NCBI GenBank assembly: GCA_944376425.1
Contig: CALWCS010000049.1
Span: 1 to 64,000 of the forward strand
DNA length: 64,000 nt
Direction of reading: 5' to 3'
From: an uncultured Lachnospiraceae bacterium
GTDB lineage: Bacteria; Bacillota; Clostridia; Lachnospirales; Lachnospiraceae
Shown here: positions 8,390 to 51,311 of the stretch, one piece after another
Numbering within the stretch: position 1 is the first letter of the stretch
Layout: each line of letters opens with the position of its first letter
Position numbers and translations under genes: made by a program
The notes under the pieces: model-generated
The model's input: the letters and a program-made list of their open reading frames with translations, nothing else
What the model was told of the DNA's origin: nothing
Database searches by the model: none

Positions 8390-11091
<2,702 letters not shown>

Positions 11092-11162
11092 GCATCTGTC
11101 CTTCCTTCCCGTTTTCTGATACGTTTCTGTTTCTATTAACAATAAAAAATAACATTATCATT

Positions 11163-12689
11163 CTATTGCTTTTCTATATTATGCTTTACAAAAGCTTGTT
11201 TGCATTCTTCTATGGCACGAATCAAATTCTGTTCATTTTCTTGTGAAATCTGCTTTTGTGCTGCAATTTCTTCCGGTATTTCCGGAAATCTTGTCTTAAT
11301 CCATTCTGTCAATTCTTTCTCAAAACGTGAAATTTCTTCCACTGGAAGATCTAAAAGATATTTCTTTGTTGCGGCATAGAGGATAATAACCTGATATTCT
11401 ACCGGTATAGGCTCATATTGAGACTGTTTTAAAACTTCCCTGATCCTTTCTCCTTGTCTTAGTTTTTTTCTTGTATCTTCGTCAAGTTCTGAACCAAACT
11501 GAGAAAATGCCGCCAGCTCCCGATACTGTGCCAACTCTACGCGAATCGGAGAAGCAATCTTTTTCATAGCCTCAATTTGTGCTGCACCTCCCACACGCGA
11601 TACAGAAAGTCCTGCATTGACAGCCGGACGAAATCCTGCATGAAAAAGTTCTGTCTCCAGATAGATCTGACCGTCTGTGATGGAAATCACATTTGTCGGA
11701 ATATATGCCGAAACATCACCTGCCAGTGTTTCAATAATCGGCAGTGCCGTCAAAGAGCCGCCTCCTTGTTCATCTGACAATCTTGCAGCTCGTTCTAACA
11801 GTCGGGAGTGAAGATAAAAAACATCTCCCGGATATGCCTCGCGCCCCGGCGGACGTTTTAGAAGCAAGGAGATTGTCCTGTAAGCTGCCGCATGTTTTGA
11901 CAGATCATCATAAATAATCAGCACATCTTCCCCTCGTTCCATCCATTCTTCTCCTATCGCGCATCCTGAATACGGAGCAAGATACTGAAGCGGTGCAATC
12001 TCACTTGCAGTTGAGGCAACTACTGTCGTATAATCCATCGCTTTGTGTTCTTCCAGGATCTTGACAATAGAGGCAACTGTTGATGCCTTCTGTCCGATCG
12101 CTACATAAATACACTTTACATTCTGATTCTTCTGATTGATAATCGTATCAATTGCAATTGCTGTTTTTCCGGTCTGCCTGTCACCGATAATCAATTCTCT
12201 TTGTCCTCTCCCGACAGGTACCATAGCGTCTATGGCTTTGATTCCTGTCTGAAGCGGTGTATCTACTGATTTTCTTGAAATGACACCCGGCGCGCTGCGT
12301 TCCACCGGACGGTATCGAGTCGTCTGAATCGGACCTTTTGCGTCAATCGGCTGTCCGAGTGCATTGACGACTCTTCCGATCATACTGTCTCCTACCGGTA
12401 CTTCAACGATGCGCCCTGTTGTCCTGACCATGTCTCCTTCTTTTATTTCCTCTGAATCCCCAAGCAAAACGGCTCCTACATGATCTTCTTCCAGATTCAT
12501 CACCATACCGAAAACGTCGCCTGGAAATCCAAGCAGTTCTCCCTGTATTGCCTTTTCCAGCCCATAAATTCGTGCCATTCCGTCTGCCGTCTGGGTCACA
12601 GTCCCGACATCGGCAACTATCATTTTAGAAGAATAATTTCTAATCTGTTCTTTAATTACAGAACTGATTTCCTCCGGTTTTAAATTCAT
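11163..12689 (-). CDS. atpA: ATP synthase F1 alpha subunit
   Basis: This is the non-catalytic nucleotide-binding subunit of F1. The Walker A motif is GDRQTGKT (around residues 169-176), and the family signature [17 protein letters not shown] is complete. The N-terminus [19 protein letters not shown] is the helix that contacts delta. At 508 residues the length is standard. The start overlaps the atpH stop by 4 bases, with AGAAGGTG upstream. Confidence 0.97.
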
Positions 12690-21223: not shown

Positions 21224-21376
21224 AAAAAAAGCCCGCAATAAGCGGACTTTTTTATCTGTAATCATATAAAATCCCTTATTGTTCGATCAACTCGCTCAGG
21301 TTGGCACCTTCCTCTGCAAGGGGTTGCCGTGACTTCACAGATCCTATGTATCTCCATCACTCTGAATAAAGGTTCG
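21224..21376 (-). promoter_or_regulatory. SAM-I (S-box) riboswitch with terminator
   Basis: On the minus strand, TCAGAGTGATGGAGA and GGATCTGTGAAGTCACGG match the S-box core; the closing stem P1 pairs CCTTTATT near 21370 with AATAAGG near 21276. A GC-rich stem (AGTCCGC/GCGGGCT, 21229-21251) followed by a run of seven T forms the terminator. SAM binding would favour termination. It lies in the leader of metK, about 150 bases before its start. Confidence 0.93.
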
Positions 21377-50473: not shown

Positions 50474-50489
50474 ATGATTCCCCCAATCT

Positions 50490-50740
50490 TTCCCGTATTA
50501 TTGTATATTTTATTATTGTTTCATTTTATTGTTTTATTATGTTGTCGTATTGTACTATTATATTTTTATATTGATTATTGTTTTGTTTTTTATCTTTTTA
50601 TCTTTTTCATTTTTTCCTGTTTTTATTTATATTTCTTTAACTCTATTTTATTTTTATCAGATTATTTTCTTATATTATTTTATTATACTATATTTTATCT
50701 GAATATATAATATAATATTGTATTTTTAACAAATAATTTA
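50490..50740. repeat. Extremely AT-rich low-complexity stretch
   Basis: This part of the 840-base gap is almost all T and A, with T-rich runs and TTTTAT/TATTATT repeats on the plus strand. No gene or hairpin with GC is seen. It precedes the inverted repeat element. Confidence 0.7.
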
Positions 50741-50990
50741 TATTATGACAATTTGCATAAAAGTATTTGAGACAGAGAGAAAGTCTCCTTCCAGTCGCAG
50801 ACTCAATGATTTTCTTATTTTGCTGCGCCATCTATTAACAGCTGCTTTGCAAATTCGCCTGCAAGCAGGCTCAATAGGCAAAGCAGCCGTAATTAGGCTT
50901 GCAAAATTACGAAAATCATCTAAATGTCTGCGCTTTGGAAGGAGACTCCCTCTCTGTTCAATATAAGTTTCTGCGCAAATTGCTATATTC
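50741..50990. repeat. Long imperfect inverted repeat with internal hairpins
   Basis: Left arm 50741-50814 and right arm 50911-50990 pair over about 75 bases, including AGTCTCCTTCC and CGCAGAC blocks identical in both arms. Inside are a perfect 10-bp stem GCTGCTTTGC/GCAAAGCAGC (50841-50850 with 50878-50887) capped by GCCTGC/GCAGGC, and a hairpin CGTAATT/AATTACG (50888-50911). No open reading frame of note is inside. A promoter-like TTGTAT-17-TATTAT (50718-50746) lies before it on the plus strand and a terminator after it. It may be a structured RNA gene or a MITE-like insertion. Confidence 0.75.
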
Positions 50991-51033
50991 TGTTTTCAAA
51001 AAAACTTTCATCATTTAAATCAGCTTATAAAGA

Positions 51034-51079
51034 AACATACCCTACTGTAATCTCTCTTACAGATAAGGTATGTTTTTTT
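51034..51079 (+). terminator. Rho-independent terminator after the inverted repeat
   Basis: AACATACC pairs with GGTATGTT (51034-51041 with 51067-51074), with an inner CTGTAA/TTACAG stem and a seven-T tract. The strand places it after the inverted repeat element, as if ending a plus-strand transcript. The rest of the gap to 51311 is AT-rich without recognised features. Confidence 0.85.
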
Positions 51080-51311
51080 GCTTTAAAAACCTGTTTTACA
51101 TCCATCATGCTGACAGATGGTAATGAAGAATGATTAACCTTACTTTATTGTTTTCCTCAGTAAATAACTATTGTTTCTTACCTATGTTTACTATTATAGA
51201 CAATAATATCTTACTATTTATATAATCATTTTCTTTTTCTTACTTAATTCCAGATAAATTTTATTTTCACCCAGTTTTATTATTTAATAAAATATAAATA
51301 TTAAAATATCA

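Follow-up and report, generated by a model that had tools for sequence, protein, structure and literature searches.

A long hairpin in a Lachnospiraceae genome is probably a palindromic mobile element of an undescribed family with a conserved core and changeable arms

A long dyad at positions 50741-51079 of the window (the whole stretch of 64,000 nucleotides analysed here, from an uncultured Lachnospiraceae bacterium) raises the question of whether an RNA gene or a mobile element is encoded at this place. A preliminary description had offered two options, a palindromic mobile element or a non-coding RNA some 330 bases long, encoded on the plus strand between a promoter and a terminator of its own. 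The structured dyad itself is real. Indeed, the fold of 50741-51079 reaches -126 kcal/mol against a mean of -66.3 (sd 5.3) for shuffled sequences (z -11.3; 0 of 100 shuffles equal), and blastn returned positions 50749-50982 as a match to their own reverse complement. The hairpin proper extends over approximately 50745-50985, its arms comprise about 75-120 bases with internal bulges, and the sole frame spanning it is a palindromic ORF of 73 aa (ORFs were called mechanically). In brief, this hairpin includes: a conserved core of 137 bp (50796-50932, minus strand), defined by the covariance model R2 and by an alignment of 44 copies (A5); a left inverted-repeat arm (50749-50795), the outer part of which is specific to the window copy, delimited by the self-match and the fold; a right inverted-repeat arm (50933-50982), delimited by the self reverse-complement match and the fold; and, overlapping these parts, a unit (50769-50960, minus strand) with the ends GGGACAG...CTGTCCC, 191-194 bp long in the seven full copies of the genome that have it in common. 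The core is composed of a terminal stem GCAGAC/GTCTGC, two A/T stems with conserved internal loops, a variable inner stem and, in the window, an apical hairpin TTGAGCC..GGCGAATTT. Model R2 has one match only in the window, the core itself (111 bits, E 1e-22, E-values from custom covariance models being rough).

A terminator-like hairpin (51033-51080) adjoins the element but lies apart from it, and equivalents of it occupy the corresponding position in G001 and G002, the two other genomes of the genus, both of which lack the element; it is therefore host sequence and not the intrinsic terminator of the element, as had been proposed, and it went unreported in a strict terminator scan. The proposed promoter TTGTAT-17-TATTAT before the dyad fared no better, since it is absent from the output of a promoter scan of the AT-rich gap, which returned 9 promoter-like sites for 6.4 +- 2.9 expected. 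In G001 and G002 the site is empty, the intergenic space measuring 323 and 305 bp versus 839 bp in the window. The element accounts for about 260 bp of the extra length and an AT-rich stretch for the rest, the junction being unalignable at this distance. This stretch, T-rich and AT-rich, of about 260 bp (50480-50740), adjoins the element and is missing from both genus relatives.

The hairpin is not unique. A blastn search with the unit, a check suggested in the preliminary description, found seven other places in the genome of the window, at 73-86% identity and over partial or full length, with varied flanks. The covariance model R1 identified seven full copies in this genome and at least three degenerate ones (C53, C85 and C69 remnants). 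The seven aligned full copies have a fixed length and fixed ends, each combine an arm of one type with an arm of a second type, and show matched double changes at 24 of 69 pairs. Beyond this genome, covariance model matches were obtained in 16 of 299 Lachnospiraceae genomes of 16 genera, the genomes compared being species representatives. More than 20 copies are present in the complete genome G283, and G243 carries four copies that share 88-99% identity across about 240-270 bp, their flanks being unrelated. Furthermore, a degenerate core pattern run against 84,980 species genomes gave 29 stretches, in Clostridia only; the names of these records are mostly Lachnospiraceae, Lachnotalea or Blautia, two being just Eubacteriales. 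Copies were collected partly via the structure model, whereas the pattern search used sequence only, and it recovered elements with matching anatomy. The absence of a known family, as first described, is correct for Rfam: at the gathering threshold no Rfam 15 family matches the element, whether in the window or at the other loci scanned, permissive E-values yielded only chance-level matches of plant and animal microRNA type, and a known RNA family was rejected on these grounds. A phage or plasmid origin was also rejected, no match being present in phages, plasmids or viral contigs. No published description of the family was found in the open-access literature.

Empty sites are also found outside the genus. 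In Blautia SUG264, a single copy is located between amtB and a convergent gene, in a gap of 347 bp with the element, while the gap measures 100-141 bp in seven of the eight syntenic relatives recovered and 217 bp in the eighth. The host terminator at this site is intact and separate from the element, and neither arm is recognisable in the syntenic Blautia relatives; most likely, the whole hairpin and not the core alone was inserted at this site. Among the copies, 83 of 86 are intergenic or at contig edges, 55 being in tandem, 20 in convergent and 5 in divergent gene contexts for a background of 181 : 54 : 53. Copies are thus displaced toward gene 3' ends, a bias that may stem from the choice of target or from loss of copies near promoters, and their strand relative to tandem genes is divided 30 : 25. 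No target-site duplication was seen by eye at the G243 and Blautia junctions. Beside the copies there is no recurrent transposase, reverse transcriptase or recombinase, and the only families of neighbour genes that recur are common ones, ABC-transporter and two-component proteins. The ORFs that separate paired copies are those of ordinary genes, and a single tyrosine recombinase gene was encountered among them, solely in G000. This gene (10916-11881, Phage_integrase) belongs to the genome of the window, where it is flanked by two oppositely oriented copies (L073 10341-13168); not recurrent elsewhere, it is a candidate mobiliser. As no mobilising enzyme recurs beside the copies, mobility is deduced from copy number and empty sites, and on this basis the copies very probably form a mobile palindromic family. 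With flank-varied copies, a site empty in relatives and members across Lachnospiraceae genera, the first of the two options offered at the outset is supported.

What is conserved in this family is the centre of the hairpin. In all intact copies, a core of about 120-140 bp forms the tip of a long inverted repeat. On the strand termed B-first (the minus strand in the window), the core reads approximately GCAAACRATAGGCAGATTTTCGCAATTTTGCGAGCATAGCG(inner stem)CTGTCTGAGCC..GGCGAGTTT(inner stem)AATAGGCGGCGCAGCAAAATAAGAAAATCAACGTGTTTGC; it is asymmetric, its internal loops being conserved and not smoothed to a perfect palindrome, and the conserved motifs of these loops include UGAGCC/GGCGA, which is k-turn-like (a resemblance only). 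A second apical subtype reads TGACC..TTTGATGG..AAGC, and a third, in G231 (L066, L067 and L085), shares the core base but has an apical domain of quite another kind (GGTCGGAGACGGGTGC...). Covariation of the stems, the other check suggested, is strong in the core: in alignment A5, double-sided changes occur at 22 of 28 pairs, and the covariation score is 0.488 versus 0.170 +- 0.009 for shuffled and at most 0.131 for slid alignments, with 95% of cells paired. A symmetric arm-against-arm count over 47 copies gave, for the inner stem on the B-first strand, 645 Watson-Crick, 22 G-T and 3 A-C pairs (p 1.6e-4), versus 27 G-T and 15 A-C in the first 20 bp of the arms (p 0.09) and 40 G-T and 48 A-C, that is, no strand bias, in arm bases 20-60; these p-values are guides only, the copies not being fully independent. 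An early wobble count on whole hairpins had indicated no clear strand bias, a result overturned for the core by more copies and separated stems. From these counts, the core seems to be selected as a minus-strand fold, and in all likelihood it folds as a single strand, RNA or ssDNA. The outer arms look like duplex DNA without strand preference. Covariation and strand-specific wobble, which together characterise a structured RNA, are thus found in the core only, and such a signal could equally arise from ssDNA.

The arms beyond the core (20-75 bp) are of near-perfect complementarity beside it. The anchored inverted-repeat score has a median of 21 in 24 G283 and G320 copies, whereas none of 263 random positions exceeds 12, and one G320 copy has perfect arms (54 of 54 paired bases). 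Between copies within G000, G243, JAAWCJ and CAMSZT/JAAWRC the arms are homologous, their differences being matched changes, and between genomes arm sequences are unrelated or weakly related. The arms of G283 copies whose cores reach 97% identity are 45 and 60% alike, no more than expected of shuffled sequences (51 +- 9%). Each G283 arm matched its own locus alone in a whole-genome search, and capture of arms from elsewhere in the genome was rejected, no source being present in G283 or G320. A weak motif, approximately CACAGAAAATTT, read by eye, is nevertheless common to G283 arms and suggests that they are distantly homologous and not wholly new. Some hairpins have lost most of the core and kept the arms with core-end remnants (L069 4447-4552, L071 4426-4512, L151 and L156), and these are internal deletion derivatives. 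At L125 (1816-2091), the core seems to be interrupted by another hairpin-forming insert (GCACTTAGCGA...).

Three other readings were weighed against a mobile element with a conserved core. One of them, a dispersed structured RNA gene or 3'-UTR regulator in which the minus strand would form a long hairpin acting in cis or in trans and spread by duplication, agrees with the strong core covariation, the strand-specific wobble bias, the conserved internal loops with their k-turn-like motif, and the location near gene 3' ends. This reading is nonetheless unlikely: orientation to tandem genes is random and the neighbours are unrelated, the unit carries along no promoter or terminator, the wobble bias does not extend to the outer arms, and Rfam holds no matching family. 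The plus-strand RNA envisaged in the preliminary description is further opposed by flanks that are unconserved between copies, by a terminator that is the host's and by a wobble signal that lies on the minus strand, and this option was abandoned.

The other two readings concern what moves. An ordinary MITE, whose terminal inverted repeats would be recognised by a DDE transposase and whose palindromic interior would be incidental, could account for the ends common within G243 and Lachnotalea-like genomes (e.g. CACGACAAACGCATGAAT and CCACCTGTGCGG) and for the internally deleted derivatives. A conserved middle with ends differing between genomes is, however, the reverse of a MITE, no target-site duplication was seen by eye at the junctions inspected, and the strand-specific structure of the core would be left unexplained, so that such an origin is improbable. 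Alternatively, the core alone might move, the arms being an inverted target duplication made at insertion or a pre-existing host terminator stem hosting the core. The near-identical G283 cores with unrelated arms and the G320 arms that are perfect over 54 bp are in line with this, and at L089, L097 and L105 the inverted repeat extends as far as the stop codon or the ribosome-binding site of a gene, an arrangement more in keeping with arms derived from the target. Against it, the host terminator in Blautia is intact and separate, and both arms are missing from the syntenic relatives; homologous arms occur from copy to copy in G000, G243, JAAWCJ and CAMSZT; and 192 kb of G283 contain only three other inverted repeats of at least 25 bp and no non-core one of at least 39 bp. 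Arms as an inverted target duplication, favoured on the G283 data, are contradicted by the Blautia site and by the homologous arms elsewhere, and movement of the core alone is very unlikely.

The window hairpin is therefore best read as a non-autonomous palindromic mobile element of about 200-290 bp, and it probably belongs to an undescribed Lachnospiraceae family. The copies form a dispersed, protein-free unit in which a conserved asymmetric core tips two long complementary arms of drifting sequence. The core, as ssDNA or RNA, might be recognised by an unlinked mobilising enzyme acting in trans, and a role of the core as the mobility signal is put forward tentatively. The sequence of the arms would not be read; their complementarity would be made or kept by hairpin-templated DNA synthesis (template-switch or snap-back) during replication or movement of the element, and insertion would tolerate intergenic space, mostly right after gene ends. 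Homogenisation of the arms by such copying is quite possible, at a little under an even chance. Template switching between inverted-repeat arms is known to homogenise arms and to invert spacers (PMC8604942, PMC7202029), and would explain both the random orientation of the core and a complementarity without wobble bias. Alone, it is insufficient for the fast change of the arms and for unrelated arms on G283 cores that are 97% identical. The most far-reaching form of this proposal, in which only the self-folding single-stranded core (RNA or ssDNA) is conserved and the arms are remade or rewritten by fold-back copying in each cycle, has a low probability in our estimate; we know of no described bacterial mobile DNA that propagates with arms rewritten each cycle.

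Several known systems share part of this anatomy. ERIC/IRU, YPAL/RU-2, RUP and NEMIS are short, protein-free, intergenic imperfect palindromes, expected to form long stem-loops when transcribed, ERIC/IRU having a 127-bp enterobacterial consensus with a 7-bp TIR and TA ends (PMC2229807). The Lachnospiraceae element is likewise a short, dispersed, intergenic and protein-free imperfect palindrome, but its centre and not its ends is conserved, its arms are hypervariable yet complementary, and no target duplication is seen by eye; it is also set apart by the description of ERIC, with 200-290 bp, a Lachnospiraceae host and no TA-ended TIR. REPs measure 20-40 bp, with GTAG/CGTC tags and stems of 5-13 bp (PMC3733652). 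Like REP/RAYT sequences, the copies are dispersed extragenic palindromes favouring positions downstream of genes, but the core alone has 120-140 bp, lacks a GTAG/CGTC tag, and has no RAYT recurring beside it. The R'/R'' boxes of attC sites have the consensus GTTRRRY / RYYYAAC, whereas the core ends in GCAAAC...GTTTGC without an R-box GTTRRRY, and no cassette array or integrase accompanies the copies. The likeness to integron attC sites is a functional analogy only, that of a one-strand folded hairpin, attC being recognised by its structure, in which unpaired features are conserved and paired stems vary (PMC2727003). Quasipalindrome homogenisation by template switching would give long complementary arms without RNA-level selection (PMC8604942, PMC7202029), but it is a mutational process and not an element, and leaves dispersal unexplained. 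As in bacterial MITEs, multiple dispersed protein-free copies and empty sites in relatives are present, terminal sequences being shared between copies in some genomes only. As the defining features of ERIC, REP/RAYT and attC are lacking, the element falls outside these named families, though it behaves like a palindromic repeat of MITE type such as ERIC.

An undescribed mobile hairpin family is thereby added to the Lachnospiraceae, a dominant gut bacterial family, with an inverted pattern in which a centre folded on one strand is conserved and the arms are changeable but ever-matching. Two questions can be put to the test with it: which agent mobilises palindromic repeats that encode no protein (for ERIC, no such enzyme had been identified at the time of review; PMC2229807), and whether selection or copying keeps the arms of natural palindromes identical. 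In addition, individual copies could be tracked by their unique arms on a common core.

Some copies lie in neighbourhoods with features of their own. HIT and murG genes are encoded between two G283 copies (L166 4357-6631), and the window copy is located 2-4 kb from murG and HIT, a shared neighbourhood that is possibly a coincidence. Another copy directly follows a fluoride riboswitch and a Clostridiales-1 RNA (L080 4205-4856), and that of L058 is just 3' of a T-box leader. A SAM riboswitch (RF00162, 69 bits) was also predicted in the window, at 21273-21372 on the minus strand.
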